A stretch of 54,592 nucleotides of DNA, taken from assembly GCA_035651955.1 (NCBI GenBank), contig DASRES010000005.1, positions 1-54,592 of the forward strand, given 5' to 3'. Below are positions 4,879 to 17,830 of the stretch, in pieces (position 1 is the stretch's first letter; the number at the start of each line of letters is the position of its first letter). This DNA comes from Acidimicrobiia bacterium (GTDB lineage: Bacteria; Actinomycetota; Acidimicrobiia; IMCC26256; JAMXLJ01). The position numbers and the translations under genes were made by a program. The notes below the pieces were generated by a model. It searched no databases. It had not been told where the DNA came from and saw only the letters and a program-made list of their open reading frames with translations.

Positions 4879-5604
4879 GTGCCCGAGCCCGACCAGCCGC
4901 ACGACGGGAGTGAGCACACGCGCGCCGTGTTCAGCGCGATCTACGAGACCGACCATTGGAAGGGCGGCTCGGGCGAGGGGTCGCCGCCCGACGCGACGGC
5001 GCCGTACCGCGAGTTCGTCCAGCGGCTGCTCACGGCGCGGGACGTGCGGACGGTCGTCGACGTCGGTTGCGGTGACTGGCAGTCGTCGCGCCTGATCGAC
5101 TGGCGGGGCGTCCGCTACACGGGTGTCGACGTCGTCCCCGAGGTGGTCGACGCCGACCGTGAGCGCTTCGGTGGGCCGGACGTGGCGTTCGCGTGCGCCG
5201 ACGTCGCGACCGAGCCTGCGCCGCGCGCGGATCTCCTGCTGTGCAAGGACGTCCTCCAGCACTGGCCGAACGCGGTCATCCGGCGTTTCGTCGCCCGTGA
5301 ACGACGCCGGCACCGCTACCTCGTGCTGACGAACGACGTGTGGAGCGTCCACTGGCCCGACGACGAACGGAACGCGGACGTGCCGATGGGGCACTGGCGC
5401 ACGATCGACCTCGAGCAGCCGCCGTTCGCGATCCGTGCGGACGTCCGTCTCGACTTTCTCGTCGGGACCGAGTGGCGGAAGCGCGTCCTCGTCGTGACGA
5501 ATCCGCTCCATCGCCTCCGTGCGTCGCTGACGCGCGGCTCCGCCCTCGCGATCGCGCGCGAGTCCGTCAGCCCATCGTCTTCGCGCCGTCGAGCGACTCC
5601 CTGA
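4879..5604 (+). CDS. SAM-dependent class I methyltransferase
   Basis: A 241-residue protein with the Rossmann SAM motif I (VVDVGCGDWQSS, about residues 59-70), motif II acidic end YTGVDVVPEVVDAD, and a post-motif segment LLLCKDVLQHWPN. The opening (AIYETDHWKGGSGEGSPP) resembles a family of methyltransferases acting on sugars or small molecules; the substrate is not evident. The GTG start at 4879 lacks a strong ribosome site. Its 3' end overlaps the convergent DinB gene by 38 nt, so the last dozen residues (Ser/Arg-rich) may be poorly conserved. Confidence 0.8.
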   Translation: MPEPDQPHDGSEHTRAVFSAIYETDHWKGGSGEGSPPDATAPYREFVQRLLTARDVRTVVDVGCGDWQSSRLIDWRGVRYTGVDVVPEVVDADRERFGGPDVAFACADVATEPAPRADLLLCKDVLQHWPNAVIRRFVARERRRHRYLVLTNDVWSVHWPDDERNADVPMGHWRTIDLEQPPFAIRADVRLDFLVGTEWRKRVLVVTNPLHRLRASLTRGSALAIARESVSPSSSRRRATP

Positions 5605-6088
5605 TGATGTCGGCGTGACCGGCGTGCTGCGCGGTCTCCGCCACGATGTGGACGATCGCGCGCCGAGCCGTCCGGCGCGCGCCCGGTGGGAACCACGGCG
5701 CCTCGGGCAGCGGGTGCGACACGTCGAGTGACGGCAGCGTCCGGACCACCTGTTCCGTCTGCCGCCCGACCTCTCGATACGCGTCGACCAGGCCGGCGAT
5801 CGTCTCGCCGTCCTCCATCCGGAAGCTCGCGGCGTGCGCGGCGAACGCCTCGGGAGTCATGCCACCGATCGCGTCCGGGCCGCGCTCGATGAACTCCACC
5901 CACTGCCGCTCCACCTTCGCCACGTGCTTCACGAGCCCGCCGAGCGTCAGCTCGCTGACCGTCGTGCGCGTCCGGGCCTGGTCGTCGTCGATCCCCTCGA
6001 CCGTCCTCAGGAACAGGTCCCGGTGCGCCGTGAGCGCCTCGATCAGGTCGGCCCGCTCTTGCTCGATCCCGTCGGATTCGCTGGCCAT
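5567..6088 (-). CDS. DinB family protein (DUF664-like)
   Basis: 173 residues forming a four-helix-bundle DinB-like protein: an N-terminal ERADLIEALTAHRDLFLRTV helix, LGGLVKHVAKVERQWVEF (metal-ligand His region), and a C-terminal AIVHIVAETAQHAGHADIIR helix with the third His cluster. Members are metal-dependent thiol or damage-related proteins (mycothiol or bacillithiol transferase-like). The ATG at 6088 is divergent from the 6176 operon, with an 87-nt shared promoter region. Convergent overlap with the methyltransferase gene. Confidence 0.88.
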   Translation of the reverse strand: MASESDGIEQERADLIEALTAHRDLFLRTVEGIDDDQARTRTTVSELTLGGLVKHVAKVERQWVEFIERGPDAIGGMTPEAFAAHAASFRMEDGETIAGLVDAYREVGRQTEQVVRTLPSLDVSHPLPEAPWFPPGARRTARRAIVHIVAETAQHAGHADIIRESLDGAKTMG

Positions 6089-6175
6089 GGTCCTCCTCGG
6101 CCGTCGCAGTCGTGCTTGCCTCGCCGCCGGCGGGCTATTACAGCAGTGCTGCAGACACCGCCGAAGGGGAGACGG

Positions 6176-7408
6176 ATGAGATCACTCGACGTCCGGACCC
6201 GGACCGCCGCCGACACCCGCGACGTCACGCCCGACGCGTTCTTCGACGACGAGCTGCCCGCGCTCGTCGACGCGCACGCGCACCTCGCCCTTCCCGGTGC
6301 ACACGAGCTCGGTGTCACGTCGTTCGCGATCGTCACGCCGTCGGGCGCATGGACGCTCGCGCTCGACGAGGCGCACGACACGATCCGCGTCACCCGGGGT
6401 GACACCGGCGACGCCGCCACCGAGCTCGACCACGACGAGGTCGCGCGGCTCGTCGACGACCGGCTCACGCCGATGACGCTGGTCGCGTCGGCGCGCGTCC
6501 GCATGCGGCGCGGGAGCCTCGAGCAGTTCCTCGACTGGTGGGTCGTGCTCCGTTCGCTGATCGACGGCCGGCCCGCGCACACGCGGGGCTCGGTGGAGCT
6601 GCGCGACCGCGACGGATCGCCGCTCGACGTGACCCGGTCGTTCACGCCCGAGGACGACGACGACGCCATCGCGCACTTCCTCACCGAGACGGGCTTCCTG
6701 CATCTGGAGGGCTGGTTCGGCCTCGACGAGATGGAGGCGATCAGCCGCGACATGGACGCTGCCTTCGCGCACTACGCACCGGACGACGGCCGGTCGTGGT
6801 GGGCCGAGACCGCCGACGGCACGGCGCGCGCCGTGAGGTTGCAGCGCTTCGAGGAGCACAGCCCGACGTTCGCCGCGCTGATCCGCGACGACCGCTTCCT
6901 GCGCATCGGGCGTCTCACGGGCGACGCCTACGTGCCGCCTGCCGGCGGCGAGGCGCTCGAGAAGCCGATCGGCGTCGTGAAGGGCATCTCGGATCTGCCG
7001 TGGCACAAGGACTGCTCGCTCGGCATGCACTCGTACAACTGCTGCGGCCTGACCGTCGGCGTCTCCGTGACGGGGGCGGACGAGCAGAGCGGCGCGCTCG
7101 CTGTCGTGCCGGGGTCGCACCGCGCGCTCGTGCAGCCCTCCTTCTACCGTTCGCTGTGGGGGCTGCCGCCGCGCGACCTGCCGACGCGCACGGGTGACCT
7201 CACGGTCCACTGCTCGTGCACGATGCACATGAGCCACCCGCCCGTGACGAAGGAGCGGCGCGTGCTCTACACCGGGTTCTCGCTCGCGCCGCGCGGCGAC
7301 TCGCTCGCGGAGGACCGCGCCGTCGCGTCGGCCGTCCGCGAGAACGCCTACAAGAAGGTGTCCCAGGCACCCAGCCCCGTCGCGGCGGGGAGGAGTCCCG
7401 GAACGTGA
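6176..7408 (+). CDS. SCP2-like domain / phytanoyl-CoA dioxygenase (PhyH) fusion
   Basis: 410 residues; ATG at 6176 behind AAGGGGAG. Residues about 165-385 are a PhyH-type Fe(II)/2-oxoglutarate dioxygenase: facial triad H277-K-D279 (LPWHKDCS) and distal His345 (LTVHCSCTMHMSH), with Arg in RRVLYTGF likely binding oxoglutarate. Residues about 35-140 (TSFAIVTPSGAWTLALD, ELDHDEVARLVDDRLTPMTL, GSLEQFLDWWVVLRSLI) resemble an SCP2 sterol-carrier fold. The likely role is hydroxylation of a bulky acyl-CoA or acid presented by the SCP2-like part. First gene of a six-gene operon; the next gene overlaps by 4 nt. The SCP2 call is by pattern only. Confidence 0.82.
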   Translation: MRSLDVRTRTAADTRDVTPDAFFDDELPALVDAHAHLALPGAHELGVTSFAIVTPSGAWTLALDEAHDTIRVTRGDTGDAATELDHDEVARLVDDRLTPMTLVASARVRMRRGSLEQFLDWWVVLRSLIDGRPAHTRGSVELRDRDGSPLDVTRSFTPEDDDDAIAHFLTETGFLHLEGWFGLDEMEAISRDMDAAFAHYAPDDGRSWWAETADGTARAVRLQRFEEHSPTFAALIRDDRFLRIGRLTGDAYVPPAGGEALEKPIGVVKGISDLPWHKDCSLGMHSYNCCGLTVGVSVTGADEQSGALAVVPGSHRALVQPSFYRSLWGLPPRDLPTRTGDLTVHCSCTMHMSHPPVTKERRVLYTGFSLAPRGDSLAEDRAVASAVRENAYKKVSQAPSPVAAGRSPGT

Positions 7409-8286
7409 CGGAGCACGTCGCGATCCGCGACTGCGGCCCCCGTGACGGGCTGCAGCCGCTCGACCCGCTCGCACCGTCCGAACGGGCCGCGCTCGTGCAC
7501 GACCTCTTCGCCACCGGACTCGCGGACGTCGAGATCGCCGCGTTCGTGTCGCCGAAGGCGGTCCCCGCGATGGCCGGTGCCGCGGAGGTCGTCGCGTTGG
7601 TTGACCCGCCGCCGGGCGCGCGCTGCTGGGCGCTGGTGCCGAACGAGCGGGGCGCGCAACTCGCGCTCGACGCGGGCGTCACGCACCTCACGGTGACCGC
7701 GTCGGCATCCGAGGAGTACAGCCGGCGCAACGTCCGCATGTCCGTCGACGAGTCGATCGCGCAGGCGGGGAAGATCCGCGCGCTCGCGCGCGACGCGATC
7801 GTCGACGCCGTCGTCTCGTACTCGTTCGGCTCACCGTTCGACGACGTCACGCCTCGCGTGGTCGAGGACGTGTGCACGCGCCTGCGCGACCACGGCGTCG
7901 ACCGGCTCACGCTCGCGGACACGAGCGGGGTCGCGACCCCGCGGCGCATCGAGGAGGTGCTCGGGTTCACGGGCACGGACGTCGGCTTGCACCTGCACGA
8001 CACGCGCGCGACCGCGTTGACGAACGCGTTCGCGGCGCTGAACCTCGGGATCCGTCGCTTCGACACGTCGCTCGGGGGGCTCGGCGGGTCACCGTTCGCG
8101 CCGGCCGCGGGCGGGAACCTCGCGACCGAGGACCTCGTCCTGCTGCTGGACGACCTCGGCGTCTCCACCGGCATCGACCTCGCCGCGCTGCTCGGGGCGA
8201 GCGAGCGGCTCGCCCGGCGGCTGGGCCGCGCGCTCCCGAGCCGCGTCGCGGCGGCGGGCGCGCTGCCCGCGTTCGGAGCGCGATGA
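7405..8286 (+). CDS. HMG-CoA lyase-like (DRE-TIM metallolyase) lacking the canonical Cys
   Basis: 293 residues; GTG start inside the preceding TGA (GTGA), with GGGGAGGAG upstream. A TIM-barrel lyase: opening RDCGPRDGLQ (substrate/metal loop), metal ligands HLHD (196-199), and the signature region GGLGGSPFAPAAGGNLATED. Classical HMG-CoA lyases have Cys in GG-C-P; here it is Ser229. A C-C bond cleavage on a related 3-hydroxyacyl-CoA is likely, but the true HMG-CoA reaction is uncertain. Translationally coupled to both neighbours; acetoacetyl-CoA synthetase follows, consistent with acetoacetate being a by-product. Confidence 0.85.
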   Translation: MTEHVAIRDCGPRDGLQPLDPLAPSERAALVHDLFATGLADVEIAAFVSPKAVPAMAGAAEVVALVDPPPGARCWALVPNERGAQLALDAGVTHLTVTASASEEYSRRNVRMSVDESIAQAGKIRALARDAIVDAVVSYSFGSPFDDVTPRVVEDVCTRLRDHGVDRLTLADTSGVATPRRIEEVLGFTGTDVGLHLHDTRATALTNAFAALNLGIRRFDTSLGGLGGSPFAPAAGGNLATEDLVLLLDDLGVSTGIDLAALLGASERLARRLGRALPSRVAAAGALPAFGAR

Positions 8287-10250
8287 CCACGCGCGGCGAG
8301 ATCGTCTGGCGGCCTCCGCCCGACGCGCTCGACCGAACTCGCGTCGGCGCGTTCCTGCGCTGGTTGCGCGACGAGCGCGGTCGCGACGTCGCGGACTATG
8401 CCGCGCTCTGGCAGTGGTCGGTGGACGACCTCGAAGGCTTCTGGGACGCGTTCACGACGTGGGCCGGCGTCGCGTGGTCGACCCCGCCGGCCGCCGTCCT
8501 CGCGGGGGGAAACCGCACCATGCCCGGTGCCCGCTGGTTCACCGGCGCGACGCTCAATTACGGGCAGCTGGCGCTCGCGCACGCCGAGCGCGACCCCGAC
8601 GGCGTCGCGGTGATCGCGCGCTCGCAGACCCGCGATCGCACGGAGACCACGTGGAACGAGCTCGCCCGCGACGTCGCGCGCTGCCGGGCCGCGCTCGAGC
8701 GGCTCGGCGTGCGCGCCGGCGACCGCGTCGTCGCGTACGCGCCGAACATCGCCGAGACCCTCGTCGCGTTCCTCGCGGCCGCGTCACTCGGTGCCACGTG
8801 GTCGTCGTGCCCACCCGAGTTCGGGACGCGCTCCGTCGTCGACCGGCTCTCGCAGATCGAGCCCGTCGTACTGTTCGCCGTCGACGGCTACCGCTACGGC
8901 GAGCGCGTCGTCGACCGCAGGGCGGAGGTCGACGCCGTCCGTGCCGCGCTCCCGTCGCTGCGGCACACGGTCAGCATCCGGTACCTCGGAACCGGTGACG
9001 ACGAGTGGACGCCGTTCCTCGCCAGCGGCGACGGCGCGCCGCTCACGTTCGACGCCGTCCCGGCCGAGCACCCGCTCTACGTCCTGTACTCGTCAGGGAC
9101 GACAGGGCTCCCGAAGGCGATCGTGCACGCGCACGGCGGCATCGCGGTCGAGCACACGAAGACCCTCGCGCTGCACCACGACCTCGGTGCCGGCAGCCGG
9201 TTCAGCTGGTTCACGACGACCGGCTGGATGATGTGGAACTACGTCGTGTCCGGGTTGCTCGTCGGCGCGACGATCGTGCTCTTCGACGGTGATCCGAGCG
9301 CGCCCGACCTGTCGACGTTGTGGCGGCTCGCGGCAGAGGAGCGGCTCGACGTCCTCGGCGTCAGCGCGCCGTTCCTGATGGCGTGCCGAAAGGCGGGTGT
9401 GCGGCCGCGCGACGTCGGCGACCTCAGTGGCATGCGCCAGGTCGGCTCGACCGGCGCGCCGCTGCCGCCCGACGGGTTCCGTTGGGTGCGCGACGCGGTG
9501 GGCGAGCACGTGCAGGTCGCGTCGATGAGCGGCGGCACGGACGTGTGCACGGCGTTCGTCGGCATGGTCCCGATCCTCCCCGTCCGCGCGGGCGAGATCT
9601 CGTGCCGTCTCCTCGGTTGCGACGTGCGCGCGTTCGACGAGTCGGGGACCGAGTGCCCGCCCGGTGTACAGGGCGAGCTCGTCATCACGTCGCCGATGCC
9701 GTCGATGCCGGTCGGGTTCTGGAACGACCCGAGCGGCGAGCGGTACCGCAGCGCGTACTTCGCCGACTACCCGGGCGTGTGGCGCCACGGCGACTGGATC
9801 ACGTTCCTCGACGACGGCGCGTGCGTCATCAGCGGCCGATCGGACGCGACCCTCAACCGTGGCGGCGTGCGCCTCGGGACGAGCGACTTCTACGCGGTCG
9901 TCGAGTCGCTCCCCGACGTCGCCGACAGCCTCGTCGTCCACCTCGACGACGCCGGCGACGGCACCGGCGAGCTCGTGCTGTTCGTCGCGCTCGCGCCCGG
10001 CGCGACGCTCGACGACGACCTGCGCGCGCGCATCGCGAAGGCGCTGCGCACCGACCTCTCGCCTCGGCACGTCCCCGATCGCATCGAACAGGCACCGGGC
10101 GTGCCGCGCACGCTGTCCGGCAAGAAGCTCGAGGTGCCGGTGAAGCGCATCCTGACCGGAACCCCCATCGCGACCGCGGCGTCGAGCGGCTCGCTCGCCA
10201 ACCCCGAGGTGCTCGACTACTACGCGTCCCTCGTACGGGTACGGCGATGA
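8283..10250 (+). CDS. Acetoacetate-CoA ligase (acetoacetyl-CoA synthetase)
   Basis: 655 residues, as expected for this enzyme, which makes acetoacetyl-CoA from acetoacetate, ATP and CoA. The ATG overlaps the previous TGA (ATGA). Visible ANL-superfamily motifs: A3 loop LYVLYSSGTTGLPKAIVHAH, TTTGWMMWN, GGTDVCTAFVG, GDWITFLDDGACVISGRSD and the C-terminal acylation Lys region RTLSGKKLEVPVKRIL. The N-terminal ACAS-type region (FWDAFTTWAGVAW; GARWFTGATLNYGQLAL) supports the acetoacetate subgroup. Placed after the lyase, it probably salvages the acetoacetate released, or activates a related beta-keto acid. Confidence 0.92.
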   Translation: MTTRGEIVWRPPPDALDRTRVGAFLRWLRDERGRDVADYAALWQWSVDDLEGFWDAFTTWAGVAWSTPPAAVLAGGNRTMPGARWFTGATLNYGQLALAHAERDPDGVAVIARSQTRDRTETTWNELARDVARCRAALERLGVRAGDRVVAYAPNIAETLVAFLAAASLGATWSSCPPEFGTRSVVDRLSQIEPVVLFAVDGYRYGERVVDRRAEVDAVRAALPSLRHTVSIRYLGTGDDEWTPFLASGDGAPLTFDAVPAEHPLYVLYSSGTTGLPKAIVHAHGGIAVEHTKTLALHHDLGAGSRFSWFTTTGWMMWNYVVSGLLVGATIVLFDGDPSAPDLSTLWRLAAEERLDVLGVSAPFLMACRKAGVRPRDVGDLSGMRQVGSTGAPLPPDGFRWVRDAVGEHVQVASMSGGTDVCTAFVGMVPILPVRAGEISCRLLGCDVRAFDESGTECPPGVQGELVITSPMPSMPVGFWNDPSGERYRSAYFADYPGVWRHGDWITFLDDGACVISGRSDATLNRGGVRLGTSDFYAVVESLPDVADSLVVHLDDAGDGTGELVLFVALAPGATLDDDLRARIAKALRTDLSPRHVPDRIEQAPGVPRTLSGKKLEVPVKRILTGTPIATAASSGSLANPEVLDYYASLVRVRR

Positions 10251-11023
10251 CGGACACCGCGCCGCGCGCGCGTGGGGGTGCGGCCGCGTGGACGCCTCGT
10301 GTGACGCCGCCCGTCGGCGTCGACCTCGACGTCCGCCAGAAGCTCGCGTGCGCGTTCCGCATCCTCGCCCGCACCGGGTTCAGCGAGAACATCGCCGGCC
10401 ACATCACGTGCGCGGACTCGGAGACGGGCGGCATGTGGGTCAACCCGTGGGGCCTGTGGTGGGACGAGGTGCGCGCGTCGGACGTCTGCCTCGTGAGCAC
10501 CGAGGGCCGGGTGCTCGAGGGCAAGTGGGACGTCACGCCCGCGATCCACATCCACACCGAGCTGCACCGCCGGCGTGCCGACGCGCGTGTCGTCGTGCAC
10601 AACCATCCCTACTACGCGACCGTCCTCGCCGCAGTCGGCGTGCTGCCGGACACGCTCCACCAGACGGCGTGCATGCTCGACGGCGACCTGCGCTTCGTGC
10701 GCGAGTACACGGGCGAGATCGATTCCGGCGCGCTCGGTGCCGAGCTCGCGGAACGCATCGGCGACGCATCCGTCGTCCTGCTCGCGAACCACGGCGTGAT
10801 CGTCACGGCACCGACGGTCGAGGAGGCGACGTATCGCGCGGTGAGCTTCGAGCGCGCGTGCCGGCTGATGTACGACACGTTGGCGCTGGAGCGCCCGTAC
10901 ACGACGGTCGACGCCGAGATCCGTCCCGCGATGAAGGCGTCGCTGTTGGAGCGGGGCACGGACGTGTTCTGGGCCGGCGCGGTGCGCATGCTGCTGCGCG
11001 AGCAGCCGGAGGTCCTGGAGTGA
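10247..11023 (+). CDS. Class II aldolase/adducin family protein
   Basis: 258 residues. Zn ligands of the class II aldolase fold are visible: HIHTELH, VVVHNHPYYATVLAA and LLANHGVIVTAPT. The early segment GFSENIAGHITCAD fits the family's substrate/metal-binding N-terminal region. Members do retro-aldol cleavage or decarboxylation of small hydroxy acids; several actinobacterial catabolic clusters carry one of unknown substrate. Start ATG within the preceding stop (ATGA). It ends one base into the next ATG (TGATG), so the operon stays translationally coupled. Confidence 0.88.
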   Translation: MTDTAPRARGGAAAWTPRVTPPVGVDLDVRQKLACAFRILARTGFSENIAGHITCADSETGGMWVNPWGLWWDEVRASDVCLVSTEGRVLEGKWDVTPAIHIHTELHRRRADARVVVHNHPYYATVLAAVGVLPDTLHQTACMLDGDLRFVREYTGEIDSGALGAELAERIGDASVVLLANHGVIVTAPTVEEATYRAVSFERACRLMYDTLALERPYTTVDAEIRPAMKASLLERGTDVFWAGAVRMLLREQPEVLE

Positions 11024-12282
11024 TGGTCGACATCGACGACCTGCAACGCATGGAGTTCACCACCGGCGGCAAGGCCCGCACCGGTGGCGCAACGTTCCTC
11101 CCCGAACCGCCGCGTCAGCCGCGGCGGTTCACGGTCGTCTCCGCCGACGACCACATCGTCGAACCGCCCGACACGTTCGCCGGGCGCGTGCCCGCGCGCT
11201 TCGCCGAGCGCGCGCCGCACGTCGTCGAGGAGGACGACGGCACCGAGGTGTGGATCTACGACGGGCAGCGGTTCCCGAACGTCGGCTTCAACGCGGTGGT
11301 CGGCCGGCCCGTGAGCGAGTACAGCTTCGAACCGGCGCGCTTCGACGAGATGAGGCGCGGCGCGTGGGACATCGACGCGCGCATCGCGGACATGGACGTG
11401 AACGGGATCTACGCGTCGGTGAACTTCCCGTCGTTCCTGCCCGGATTCGCGGGGCAACGCCTCCAGCTCTCGACGAACGACCGCGACCTCGCGCTCGCCG
11501 CGGTGCGCGCGTGGAACGACTGGCACATCGAGGCGTGGGCGGGCCCCCACCCCGACCGCATCATCCCGTGCCAGATCCCGTTCCTGCTCGATCCGGAGAT
11601 CGGCGCCGCGGAGATCCGCCGCAACGCCGAGCGCGGCTTCAAGGCCGTCAGCTTCACCGAGTCGCCCGCGACGCTCGGCCTGCCGTCGCTGCACACCGGC
11701 CACTGGGACCCGATCATGCGCGCGTGCGCGGAGAGCGGCACGGTCGTGAACCTGCACATCGGCTCGTCGGGCACGTCGCCGTCCACGTCCGACGACGCGC
11801 CTCCCGACGTGATCGGCGTGCTCTTCTTCGGCTACGCGATGTTCGCCGCGGTCGACTGGCTCTACTCCCTGATCCCCGTCCGCTACCCGTCGATCCGCAT
11901 CTGCATGTCGGAAGGCGGCATCGGCTGGGTCGCGGGGCTGCTCGACCGGCTCGACCACATGCTGAGCTACCACGAGATGTACGGGACGTGGACCGGCATC
12001 GAGCTCACGCCGGCCGAGGTGTTGCAGCGCAACTTCTGGTTCTGCGCGATCGAGGACCAGTCGTCGTTCGCGCAGCGCGACCGGATCGGCGTCGGCAACA
12101 TCCTCGTCGAGGCGGACTACCCGCACTGCGACTCGACATGGCCGCACACCCAGCAGAAGCTCGCCGAGCAGCTCGCTGGTCTTCCTGAGGACGACGTGCG
12201 CCGCATCACGTGGCAGAACGCGTCCGAGCTCTACCGCCATCCGATCCCGGCCGCGGTGCAGGCCGACCCGGACGCGTTCTGA
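11023..12282 (+). CDS. Amidohydrolase family 2 (ACMSD-like) protein
   Basis: 419 residues. The opening FTVVSADDHIVEPPDTF has the D-x-H metal motif of amidohydrolase-2 proteins. Later landmarks are PIMRACAESGTVVNLHIGSSG, CMSEGGIGWVAGLLDRLDH and the closing Asp motif NILVEADYPHCDSTWP. Relatives perform non-oxidative decarboxylation (ACMSD, gamma-resorcylate type) or hydrolysis. Many actinobacterial homologues of this length sit in lipid or steroid gene clusters with unproven substrates. Starts one base before the preceding gene ends; the ligase gene follows after 7 nt. Confidence 0.87.
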   Translation: MVDIDDLQRMEFTTGGKARTGGATFLPEPPRQPRRFTVVSADDHIVEPPDTFAGRVPARFAERAPHVVEEDDGTEVWIYDGQRFPNVGFNAVVGRPVSEYSFEPARFDEMRRGAWDIDARIADMDVNGIYASVNFPSFLPGFAGQRLQLSTNDRDLALAAVRAWNDWHIEAWAGPHPDRIIPCQIPFLLDPEIGAAEIRRNAERGFKAVSFTESPATLGLPSLHTGHWDPIMRACAESGTVVNLHIGSSGTSPSTSDDAPPDVIGVLFFGYAMFAAVDWLYSLIPVRYPSIRICMSEGGIGWVAGLLDRLDHMLSYHEMYGTWTGIELTPAEVLQRNFWFCAIEDQSSFAQRDRIGVGNILVEADYPHCDSTWPHTQQKLAEQLAGLPEDDVRRITWQNASELYRHPIPAAVQADPDAF

Positions 12283-12289
12283 CGAACAC

Positions 12290-13855
12290 ATGGACGAGAC
12301 GCTGACGGATCTCGTCCGCGCGCATGCGCGGGCGCGGCCCGAGGCTGCCGCCTTCGTCACGCCCGACGCCCGGTGCTCGTGGCGCGAGTACCGGGAGCGG
12401 GCGGCGGGGTTGGCCGGTGCGTACGTCGCGTGCGGGTTCGAGCGTGGTTCGCGTGTCGCGGTCCTGCTGCCCGACGGCGCGGCCGTGCACGTCGCGTTCC
12501 TGGCCGGTGAGCAGGCCGGGATCGTGACGGTCGGCATCGGCGCGCGCGCCGGCGAGCGGGAGATCGCGCATCTCGTCGAACGTACGGGCGCGGTCGCGGT
12601 CGTGACGCACGAGACGTATCGCGAGACGCCGGCCGTCGACCTCGTCGACCGACTCCGACGCGTGACCGGCCGCGACCTGCACCACGTCGTCGTGGACGAC
12701 CGCGGCGTCGCGTCGTGCGCACGGGACACGGAGCCGCTCACCGACGCCGACATCGACGCCCGCCGCGTCCGCCCCGACGACATGTTCCTGCTGAACTCGA
12801 CGTCCGGGACGACGGGCCTGCCCAAGTGCGTGATCCAGACCCAGCGCAGGTGGCGCTACTTCCACGGGCTCGCGGTCGACGCCGGCGCGCTGACCCCGAA
12901 CGACGTGTTCCTCTCCGCGATCCCCGCGCCGTTCGGCTTCGGGCTGTGGACCGCGCACTTCACGCCGACGATCCTCGGCGCGCCGGTGGTCCTCATGCCG
13001 CGCTTCTCGCCCGATCTCGCGCTGCAACTCGCGGAGCGCGAGCGGGTCACCGTCCTCGCCTGCGTCAGCACCCAGTTCGTCATGATGCTCGAGTCGCCCG
13101 CGATCGAGCGCGTGGACCTCTCGTCGCTGCGCGTCCTGTTCACGGGCGGCGAGGCGGTTCCCGAGGCGCGCGCAGCCGCGTTCGAGGACGCGACCGGCGC
13201 GCGCGTGCTCCAGTTCTACGGCTCGAACGAGACGGGCGCGCTCAGCCGCACGACGCTCGGCGACGACCGCGTGCACCGGCTCACGACCGCCGGTCGCGTC
13301 ATCCCGGAGATGCACGTGCGCGTCCTCGACGCGGACGGCCGCGACGTTCCGGCCGGCGAACCGGGCCAGCCGTGCTGTCGCGGTCCGGCGACCAGCCCCG
13401 GGTACTACGACGATCCCGCCGGGAACGCCGAGCTGTTCACGCACGACGGGTGGATGCGCATGGGCGACGTCGCCACCGTCGACGCCGACGGGTACCTGCG
13501 GGTCGTGGGCCGCACGTCCGACTTCGTGATCCGCGGCGGCAAGAACATCAGCGCGAAGGTCGTGGAGGACGAGGTCTCGTCACATCCGGCCGTCGCGCTC
13601 GCCGCCGCCGTCGCGATGCCGGATCCCGTGTTCGGCGAGCGGGTGTGCGCGTTCGTCGAGCTGCGTCCGGGAACGTCGCTCACGCTCGACGAGCTCGTCG
13701 CGCACCTCCGCGCGCGCGGCACGTCGCCGGAGAATCTCCCCGAGCGGCTCGAGGTGCTGGACTGGCTTCCGCGCGCGTCGGGCGGGAAGATCGCGAAGGG
13801 CGAGCTGCGGGAGCGCGCACGCGCCCTCCCGCAGCCCGGGTCCTCCGATCAGTAG
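12290..13855 (+). CDS. Acyl-CoA synthetase (AMP-binding, ANL superfamily)
   Basis: 521 residues. Motifs: LLNSTSGTTGLPKCVIQTQ (phosphate loop), QFYGSNETGALSRTTLGD, GWMRMGDVATVDADGYL, VVGRTSDFVIRGGKNIS, and the C-terminal catalytic Lys in LPRASGGKIAKGELRE. It should activate a carboxylic acid to its CoA thioester. Being last in the six-gene operon, it is a good candidate for the step that loads the true pathway substrate onto CoA. It converges with the downstream lipoprotein gene; the two stops overlap by 7 nt (13849-13855). Confidence 0.9.
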   Translation: MDETLTDLVRAHARARPEAAAFVTPDARCSWREYRERAAGLAGAYVACGFERGSRVAVLLPDGAAVHVAFLAGEQAGIVTVGIGARAGEREIAHLVERTGAVAVVTHETYRETPAVDLVDRLRRVTGRDLHHVVVDDRGVASCARDTEPLTDADIDARRVRPDDMFLLNSTSGTTGLPKCVIQTQRRWRYFHGLAVDAGALTPNDVFLSAIPAPFGFGLWTAHFTPTILGAPVVLMPRFSPDLALQLAERERVTVLACVSTQFVMMLESPAIERVDLSSLRVLFTGGEAVPEARAAAFEDATGARVLQFYGSNETGALSRTTLGDDRVHRLTTAGRVIPEMHVRVLDADGRDVPAGEPGQPCCRGPATSPGYYDDPAGNAELFTHDGWMRMGDVATVDADGYLRVVGRTSDFVIRGGKNISAKVVEDEVSSHPAVALAAAVAMPDPVFGERVCAFVELRPGTSLTLDELVAHLRARGTSPENLPERLEVLDWLPRASGGKIAKGELRERARALPQPGSSDQ

Positions 13856-15979: not shown

Positions 15980-16233
15980 GCGTCGCGTCGAGGGTCGTCG
16001 ATGACGAGCTCGAACTCGTCGTGCACGCGACGGCGCAGCGAGTCGTCGATCACGTCGCGCAGCATGTCGGGCGGCAGCACGCACTCCTCGCAGCTCGCGC
16101 CCTCGAGCACGAGCCGGAGCCGGATGCGAGCCGTCTTCGGATCGGCGTCCAGCAGGAGGAGGTCCGCGCCGTCGGCCCGCAGCAGCGCGCCCACCTCGTC
16201 GACCGCGGCCGCGACGTCGCGGTCGTCCATCAT
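15976..16233 (-). CDS. NifU C-terminal-like small protein
   Basis: 85 residues from ATG 16233 (ATGA overlap with the previous stop; a second ATG follows directly). The pattern VGALLRADGADLLLLDADPK, a beta strand RIRLRLVLEG, then a C-x-x-C (CEEC) followed by LPPDMLRDVIDDSLRR matches the NifU C-terminal/Nfu fold, where the CxxC binds or transfers an Fe-S cluster. There is no N-terminal scaffold domain. Next to a CGSC protein, this suggests a metal- or sulfur-handling function for the operon. Confidence 0.72.
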   Translation of the reverse strand: MMDDRDVAAAVDEVGALLRADGADLLLLDADPKTARIRLRLVLEGASCEECVLPPDMLRDVIDDSLRRRVHDEFELVIDDPRRDA

Positions 16234-17288
16234 GCCCGCACCACCGCGACGCTCTGCATCTCGCTCTCGCCGAAGCTCGGCAACGCGATCGCGTGCAGGC
16301 TGCCGAGGCCGCCGCACACGATCGGGACGATCTGGTCGGGCCGTTCGACGAGGTGCACGCGACCGTCGTCGCGCACGCGCTCTTTCTTGCGCAGGATCTC
16401 CTGGTTCGGCGCGGGCCACAGCTCGACCGGCTGCCACGCGTGCTCCCACAGGAACGCCTGCATCTCCTCGACGTCGGGGAACGGCGCCGCGAAGCGCTCC
16501 GCCCACATGGGGTTGATCGCGAGGACGACCTGACCGTTCTCGGCATGGCCGAGGTACATGTTGCTGAGCGGGAAGGCGATGCTCTTCGCGAGCAGGTACA
16601 GCAGGTCGCGCGGATCGTCGTTGTTGATGTCGGCGAGCGGGAACGTGCCCTTCCCGCCGTGGACTGTCATGACGTCGTCCGTCTCGTCGAACCCGCGCCG
16701 CCGCGCGAGCGACGGCCACGGCGACCGCTCCTCCCACTCGCCGAAGCACATCCCGAAGCGCGCCGGCTGCCCGAAGACGCTGCGCGAGGTGTCACCCGCG
16801 CGCTGGCCGCCGATGTTCCGGAGGCACAGCGACACCGCGCGCCCGATCGTCATCGATCCCCGTCCGGCCGCACCTCCCATGCATCCGGCGCGGTAGTCGA
16901 TGCCGACGTCGTCACGCGACGGGCCGTTGACGATCAGCATCGGGAACACGCTCGACGTCGTCGTCGTCAGGCCGAACGCGTTCCACTCGGGGACCGTGAT
17001 CGCATCGAGCGCCGCGATCACGTACGGGAACGCGGCCGGCGTGCACCCCGCCATCGCGGCGTTGATCGCGACGAGCTCGACGGTCGCGACGCCGTAGCGC
17101 GGCGGGAGGGCGCACAGCACGTGCTCCGGCGGGTACGGCGTCGTCACGAGCAGCGACTCGATCACGTCGTCGGTCGGCGGCAGCAGCGGGACGCCGTCGC
17201 CCCAGCGCTCCTCGAGCGAGAGCTCGTAGAGCGCGCGGGGGTCGGCGTCGAGCTCGATCGTCTCGGCGGTGAGCGACCCGGCCGTCAC
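16230..17288 (-). CDS. Unknown protein coupled to the UGSC-family gene
   Basis: 352 residues from GTG 17288, within the stop of the UGSC gene (GTGA). I do not recognise a named family. Features seen: YELSLEERWGDGVPLLPPTD near the N-terminus, a Gly/Cys-rich centre (YRAGCMGGAAGRGSMTIGRA), FGMCFGEWEERSPWPSLARR, and a C-terminal LVERPDQIVPIVCGGLGSLH. No transmembrane segments or signal peptide. Several internal Cys (AMAGCTP, AGCMGG, GMCFGE, IVCGG) may be functional. The tight coupling implies that it works with the UGSC protein, perhaps as the catalytic partner. Confidence 0.65.
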   Translation of the reverse strand: MTAGSLTAETIELDADPRALYELSLEERWGDGVPLLPPTDDVIESLLVTTPYPPEHVLCALPPRYGVATVELVAINAAMAGCTPAAFPYVIAALDAITVPEWNAFGLTTTTSSVFPMLIVNGPSRDDVGIDYRAGCMGGAAGRGSMTIGRAVSLCLRNIGGQRAGDTSRSVFGQPARFGMCFGEWEERSPWPSLARRRGFDETDDVMTVHGGKGTFPLADINNDDPRDLLYLLAKSIAFPLSNMYLGHAENGQVVLAINPMWAERFAAPFPDVEEMQAFLWEHAWQPVELWPAPNQEILRKKERVRDDGRVHLVERPDQIVPIVCGGLGSLHAIALPSFGESEMQSVAVVRA

Positions 17289-17830
17289 GGTCGGACGCCC
17301 AGCAGCTTGAGCGCCGTCGGGTAGTAGGTGTCCGCGATCTCGCGCAGCTCGTGCTCGGGTCGCGCCTCGAGCGGGTACGGCAGGACGAGGATCTTGAGGT
17401 CGCCGTGCCCGAGATGACGGGCCATGTTGTGGCCGTGCGTCGCGAACTCCTCGGCCACGACCGCGATCGACGGCTTGCGGTGCTTCTCGACGATGACGGC
17501 GTCCGCAATCGCGAACGACGTGCACGACCCGCACGTGCCGAGCCCGACGATCGCGCAGTCGACGTCCTCTGCGAGCTGCTCGATGTGGCTGCGATCCTGC
17601 GACGCGGTGTCGCCGACCTGGGCGCTGGTCTCGACGGTGACGGGATGGGCCCCGTCACGCCGGAGGTAGTCGGCCCAGATGTCCGCGATGAGCTGCCACG
17701 ACCGCCACGCCAGGTCGGTGCGCAACCCGACGCGGAGCCCCTCGAGCGGCCCGTCGACCGTGAACGTGGGCGCGCTGACGTCTTCGCCGGCCGCCGCGGT
17801 CGGCCTGCGGATCGTGATCGTCTCCGTCAT
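17285..17830 (-). CDS. UGSC family protein, cysteine form (CGSC)
   Basis: 181 residues from ATG 17830; an in-frame ATG at 17866 is an alternative, but it would place the palindrome at 17851-17862 inside the gene. The motif VGLGTCGSCTSF (Cys100-Gly-Ser-Cys103) is where UGSC-family members carry selenocysteine in some organisms; here the codon is TGC. Other landmarks: RTDLAWRSWQLIADIWADYL and the KPSIAVVAEEFATHG segment after the motif. A thiol-redox or thiol-activation chemistry is inferred. First gene of the operon with an unknown partner, a NifU-C-like protein and MarR. No selenocysteine insertion signal is needed or seen. Confidence 0.75.
   Translation of the reverse strand: MTETITIRRPTAAAGEDVSAPTFTVDGPLEGLRVGLRTDLAWRSWQLIADIWADYLRRDGAHPVTVETSAQVGDTASQDRSHIEQLAEDVDCAIVGLGTCGSCTSFAIADAVIVEKHRKPSIAVVAEEFATHGHNMARHLGHGDLKILVLPYPLEARPEHELREIADTYYPTALKLLGVRP

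Follow-up and report, generated by a model that had tools for sequence, protein, structure and literature searches.

We describe a block of six genes, numbered here 1 to 6, on contig DASRES010000005.1 of an Acidimicrobiia bacterium, an actinobacterium of soil or water type (assembly GCA_035651955.1), analyzed as a window comprising the whole stretch of 54,592 nucleotides from a 4.1 Mb draft genome. The six genes may form a composite catabolic operon, a reading whose prospects we judge to be evenly balanced, in which a core consisting of genes 4 to 6 has had genes 1 to 3 added in front of it. The more durable finding consists of the conserved core and the likely oxygenase identity of gene 5. 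The genes, and the region that precedes them, are:

Gene 1, 6176 to 7408, + strand: SCP2-like part (residues ~12-133) fused to a PhyH Fe(II)/2-oxoglutarate (Fe/2OG) oxygenase (~165-370)
Gene 2, 7405 to 8286, + strand: HMG-CoA-lyase family protein (HMGL-like)
Gene 3, 8283 to 10250, + strand: acetoacetate--CoA ligase (AMP-binding/ACAS_N)
Gene 4, 10247 to 11023, + strand: class II aldolase-fold protein (Aldolase_II)
Gene 5, 11023 to 12282, + strand: PF04909 protein (Amidohydro_2), predicted dinuclear oxygenase
Gene 6, 12290 to 13855, + strand: AMP-forming acyl-CoA ligase (AMP-binding)
Divergent intergenic region, 6089 to 6175, no strand: between a mycothiol-S-transferase/DinB gene and gene 1

Translation of open reading frames shows that the six + strand genes fill positions 6176 to 13855, and independent gene calling from codon usage returns the same six, with the start of gene 4 placed 54 nt later. 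The junctions recomputed from the coordinates are, from 5′ to 3′, overlaps of 4, 4, 4 and 1 nt followed by a 7-nt gap, confirming the six-gene operon reported by a first-pass annotation made from the sequence alone; Pfam and NCBIfam likewise agree with its family assignments for all six genes (PhyH, HMGL-like, AMP-binding/ACAS_N, Aldolase_II, Amidohydro_2 and AMP-binding). Overlaps of 4 nt are ordinary here, accounting for 12 of the roughly 48 same-strand junctions of the window, and the close packing of the six genes is by itself unremarkable. No promoter- or terminator-like site inside the block scored above chance.

The conserved unit is genes 4 to 6, not the SCP2-PhyH fusion. Gene 4 is followed on the same strand by gene 5 in 9 of the 13 relatives that have a gene 4 orthologue, and gene 6 comes next in six of those nine. 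Recurrent companions of the core in relatives are a carboxylesterase, an NmrA-type reductase, an Fe-alcohol dehydrogenase and TetR regulators. A more distant member of the same class (G059) carries an HMGL of the Cys type, a gene 5-like and a gene 4-like gene in a row, accompanied by TetR, an acyl-CoA dehydrogenase and a thiolase. On catabolic plasmids of Rhodococcus ruber, R. opacus and Rhodococcus sp. DMU1, a gene 5-like gene (~45% identity) is directly followed by a gene 4-like gene (32-36%) and then by an ATP-binding cassette importer; in R. ruber and DMU1 the pair is preceded by a cytochrome P450, alcohol/aldehyde dehydrogenases, a PDR/VanB oxidoreductase and a CoA-transferase, and in one Rhodococcus case an AMP-binding protein adjoins it. 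The literature searched yielded no function for the class II aldolase/amidohydrolase pair.

Within the core, gene 5 has DitZ (8uyr; E value 6e-72) and PtmU3 (3e-35) as its nearest solved structures. The two metals of AibH2 are bound by D25, H27, H211, E265, D337 and H340, and the dinuclear type is distinguished by an additional acidic residue, AibH2 D342 or PtmU3 E313 (PMC7782822). When gene 5 is aligned with PtmU3 and DitZ, its D42, H44, H245, E297, D365 and H368 fall at all six ligand positions and D370 at that of the extra acidic residue, and most of the full-length gene 5 orthologues of the core that were inspected also possess the ligand set and the acidic residue. PtmU3 is a beta-hydroxylase of diterpenoid biosynthesis that takes CoA-ligated substrates (PMC7782822), a property that fits the acyl-CoA ligase neighboring gene 5. 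Given the complete dinuclear ligand set and the PtmU3 precedent, we read this ‘amidohydrolase’ as probably being an amidohydrolase-related dinuclear oxygenase and not a hydrolase. Gene 5 resembles the known oxygenases of this type, PtmU3, AibH2 and SfbO (PMC7782822, PMC10401708, PMC10811679), in its PF04909 fold family, its six ligands and its acidic residue, and differs from them in having no adjoining Rieske protein or reductase comparable to AibG and AibF, and in standing closer to DitZ than to PtmU3; no function for DitZ was found in the literature searched. The genome contains 41 PF04909 (‘amidohydrolase 2’) genes in its 4.1 Mb, a set that is a probable large expansion of oxygenases. Among the best 30 of the 41, most carry the dinuclear-oxygenase signature D-[YFH]-P-H-x-[DE].

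Gene 4 retains the metal triad of FucA-type aldolases (H118, H120 and H182). It has no acid corresponding to the catalytic Glu73 of FucA within the aligned TPAIHIH stretch, and neither do its orthologues; FucA was absent from this alignment, and the position of Glu73 was taken from the family pattern and from the papers on pyruvic oxime dioxygenase (POD). The best solved matches of gene 4 by sequence are AfPOD (8il8, 8iqa), TqaM and NovR, with which it shares the three-His site and the loss of Glu73. AfPOD is an Fe(II)-dependent dioxygenase lacking the FucA acid (PMC5216522, PMC11841055). Gene 4 departs from it at AfPOD Glu164, where the aligned position holds no acid and is variable among orthologues, whereas TqaM and the Rhodococcus relatives have Glu there. 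For want of this acid gene 4 is not filed as a POD, and on its residues we assign it neither to the aldolases nor to the PODs. Within the class II aldolase family the evidence points toward the Fe-oxygenases, and this ‘aldolase’ is probably an oxygen-using metalloenzyme. An assignment as the phthalate decarboxylase PhtC was rejected, since gene 4 scores 68.8 bits where the cut-off is 200. In one relative (G037) the gene 4 orthologue lies in two pieces (locus L144, 10703-11357), reflecting either a frameshift or an assembly error.

The first-pass annotation had built the operon around the gene 1 fusion. Pfam detects PhyH alone in the gene 1 protein, and its SCP2 model finds the N-terminal domain in 5 of 46 homologues. 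An AlphaFold2 model of residues 1-152, computed from an alignment with these 46 homologues, reached a predicted local distance difference test score (pLDDT) of 91.4 and a predicted TM-score (pTM) of 0.82, and the full-length model scored 92.2 and 0.90, respectively. SCP2 structures head the Foldseek list for the N-terminus, which also contains SCP2-domain alkylsulfatases, and the top VIA-align match is the SCP2 domain of human MFE-2 (1ikt; Z 12.5, root-mean-square deviation 2.3, 107 residues). As modeled, the N-terminus of gene 1 has an SCP2 fold, bearing out the SCP2-like part proposed for residues 1-150. The iron and 2OG-binding residues of the PhyH domain (H277, D279 and H351, and R361) are invariant across 39 aligned homologues, and the predicted Fe/2OG site is intact. 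Gene 1 thus resembles the PhyH family and the SCP2 lipid carriers in both folds and in its Fe/2OG residues, and differs in joining them in a single protein with SCP2 at the N-terminus and in having natural-product 2OG oxygenases as the closest Foldseek structures to its PhyH model. No description of this fusion architecture was found in the literature searched.

We located the fusion at 79 loci in other genomes (L007-L085), in Acidimicrobiia, Halieaceae, Myxococcota and others; the named genomes with gene 1 homologues are mostly Acidimicrobiia. In a tblastn search with all six proteins as queries, genes 2, 3 and 4 adjoin the fusion at none of the 79 loci, and six genomes (G001, G020, G037, G043, G048 and G056) hold both the fusion and the gene 4/gene 5 set on separate contigs. 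These results do not support the fusion as the center of the operon. The complete six-gene set was found neither among the 79 fusion loci nor among the 61 genomes searched with genes 1 to 5. The annotation had named a lack of co-conservation in homologous operons as grounds for refuting its reading; genes 1 to 3 do lack it, which weakens the case for one fixed new pathway. A shared neighborhood for the fusion was rejected, since its neighbors differ from locus to locus (acyl-CoA dehydrogenase, enoyl-CoA hydratase, sulfatase, prolyl oligopeptidase); this census is partial, the codon model having failed on AT-rich loci, and the tblastn test is independent of that model. We also rejected a linkage between the fusion and amidohydrolase-related oxygenases: in L155 the fusion directly abuts an amidohydrolase-like gene that lacks the extra acidic residue, and a gene of this kind adjoins it in L011, L012, L019 and L153, a frequency that we estimate to be near chance because there are 41 PF04909 genes per genome. 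A sulfatase adjoins the fusion in L011, L012, L019, L077 and L078, and the last two loci contain an additional alkylsulfatase with an SCP2-like C-terminal domain.

Genes 2 and 3 correspond by family to the end of the leucine pathway, HMG-CoA lyase and acetoacetate-CoA ligase. Gene 3 passes the equivalog TIGR01217 by a wide margin (775.7 bits; cut-off 520.9), is the sole strong match to this ligase in the genome and, on this score, is a sound acetoacetate-CoA ligase; its homologues in relatives are mostly unlinked to an HMGL, with one exception (L173). Gene 2 passes NCBIfam PRK05692 narrowly (251.8 bits; cut-off 246) and is the sole full HMG-CoA-lyase homologue found in the genome. It keeps R13/D14, E43, H196/H198 and N238, and has Ser229 (GGLGGSPF) in place of the Cys of the HMG-CoA lyase signature GGLGGCP. 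This Cys is catalytic in characterized HMG-CoA lyases, and it occupies the Ser229 position in nine relatives from the order to which gene 2 belongs. The nearest relatives of gene 2 (55-62%) come from other families of the class and likewise have Ser; in the tree, the Ser-type clade comprises five rows, including gene 2 on a long branch. At the other loci of this clade (L171-L174), a carboxyltransferase-sized gene adjoins in three of the four. The two genes differ from the leucine pathway in the Ser that replaces the catalytic Cys of gene 2 and in their location inside an oxygenase operon. An HMGL stands beside a carboxyltransferase in several relatives, and the orthologue of this carboxyltransferase (72-84%) is kept here on another contig (C17) without an HMGL. 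NCBIfam models did not single out a methylcrotonyl-CoA carboxylase (MCC) among the carboxyltransferases of this genome.

The analysis establishes the gene set, the conservation of the core, the folds and the ligand residues; the oxygenase activities of genes 4 and 5, the substrate and the order of steps proposed for the composite operon are our inference. The substrate is probably a carboxylic acid resistant to the ordinary enzymes of fat burning; no curated model assigns a substrate class to gene 6. The gene 6 ligase would activate such an acid, blocked for beta-oxidation, to its acyl-CoA, which the gene 5 oxygenase would hydroxylate with O2 near the thioester, the PtmU3 precedent being the beta-hydroxylation of a CoA ester. 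Gene 4 would then break a C-C bond, either oxidatively or by retro-aldol cleavage. Genes 1, 2 and 3, added 5′ of the core in this lineage, would contribute a second hydroxylase whose SCP2 domain docks a lipid or acyl-CoA, an HMG-CoA-lyase-type enzyme splitting a 3-hydroxy-3-methyl acyl-CoA, and a ligase recovering acetoacetate as acetoacetyl-CoA. This scheme preserves much of the interpretation offered by the first-pass annotation, namely a block resembling a transcription unit, the SCP2-PhyH fusion, an acyl-CoA theme and a logic of ligase, oxygenase and cleavage. The fusion as its center is unsupported, as are the hydrolase and the ordinary aldolase; the sequence of gene 5 points to a dinuclear oxygenase and that of gene 4 toward the Fe-oxygenases of its family. 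A more specific version, which we consider unlikely, is an O2-dependent bypass of blocked beta-oxidation for beta-methyl-branched, for example isoprenoid, acyl-CoAs. Here the dinuclear oxygenase would hydroxylate the tertiary C3 to give a 3-hydroxy-3-methylacyl-CoA, Ser-type gene 2 would yield acetyl-CoA and a ketone or acetoacetate, gene 3 would re-activate the acetoacetate and the SCP2-PhyH fusion would act as a second, lipid-docked hydroxylase. If true, the bypass would add a further option beside alpha-oxidation and the carboxylation routes, of which MCC is one.

Several observations weigh against the composite operon and its oxygenases. Genes 1 to 3 are joined to the core in this genome only, among those examined. 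Neither the six genes of the operon nor the flanking genes scanned with Pfam include a ferredoxin or a reductase; such a neighbor was a discovery cue in PMC10811679 and is not obligatory for every member. PF04909 genes are so numerous in this genome (41) that the linkage of any single one is weaker evidence, and the absence from gene 4 of both the FucA and the AfPOD Glu positions means that its residues do not fix its chemistry. Alternatively, one transcript could serve two unrelated functions, which we regard as possible but doubtful: genes 2 and 3 would be the relocated housekeeping end of leucine/isovalerate breakdown, converting HMG-CoA to acetyl-CoA and acetoacetate and then to acetoacetyl-CoA, and gene 1 and genes 4 to 6 would serve something else. 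A housekeeping role is made possible by the status of gene 2 as the sole full homologue and by the HMGL-carboxyltransferase context of relatives, whose carboxyltransferase sits elsewhere here; the uniqueness of gene 3 in the genome and the proximity of an HMGL to an acetoacetate-CoA ligase in one other genome (L173) also favor it. The five coupled junctions argue for a single function, however, as does the chemistry, in which an acetoacetate-making lyase followed by its ligase suits an acyl-CoA operon. Furthermore, gene 2 is not simply an inherited housekeeping copy, because it is a long-branch member of the Ser-type clade and its own order is Cys-type.

The intact PhyH site, the SCP2 fold and the names that Pfam gives genes 4 and 5 would suit the arrangement first proposed, one new phytanate- or sterol-like pathway in which PhyH is the central hydroxylase, gene 4 is a genuine Zn aldolase and gene 5 genuinely hydrolyzes or decarboxylates its substrate. 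We find this quite improbable, given that the fusion is unlinked to these genes in 79 loci, that gene 5 has the full ligand set of a dinuclear oxygenase and that gene 4 lacks the aldolase acid. Least probable of all is a natural-product tailoring operon. Genes 4 and 5 count PtmU3, NovR and TqaM among their nearest characterized relatives, of which PtmU3 acts in platensimycin biosynthesis and NovR in that of novobiocin, and the best Foldseek matches of the PhyH model are natural-product 2OG oxygenases; yet the flanking genes searched for families include no synthase or terpene cyclase, and in relatives and on the Rhodococcus plasmids the core keeps catabolic company, its neighbors being esterases, dehydrogenases, a CoA-transferase and a solute importer.

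On its 5′ side the six-gene block is bordered by the divergent mycothiol-S-transferase/DinB gene (5567-6088, − strand), and the strand changes again 3′ of gene 6. The intergenic region at 6089 to 6175 is the likely place for the control region of the operon. A Shine-Dalgarno-like AGGGGAG precedes gene 1, and the same region contains the palindrome CAGCAgTGCTG (6141-6151), which may be an operator or a chance occurrence. Elsewhere in the window, a UGSC-family gene adjoins another gene that matches no Pfam family (16230-17830, − strand), with luciferase-like monooxygenases nearby.

Genes 4 to 6 and their counterparts outline a conserved actinobacterial module consisting of an acyl-CoA ligase or CoA-transferase, a dinuclear oxygenase and a class II aldolase-fold enzyme; its two key members probably carry the wrong names in databases, ‘amidohydrolase’ and ‘aldolase’. 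The module bears on the extent to which the large PF04909 expansions of Acidimicrobiia are oxygenases, and would offer a route for breaking down acids that lie out of the reach of beta-oxidation.

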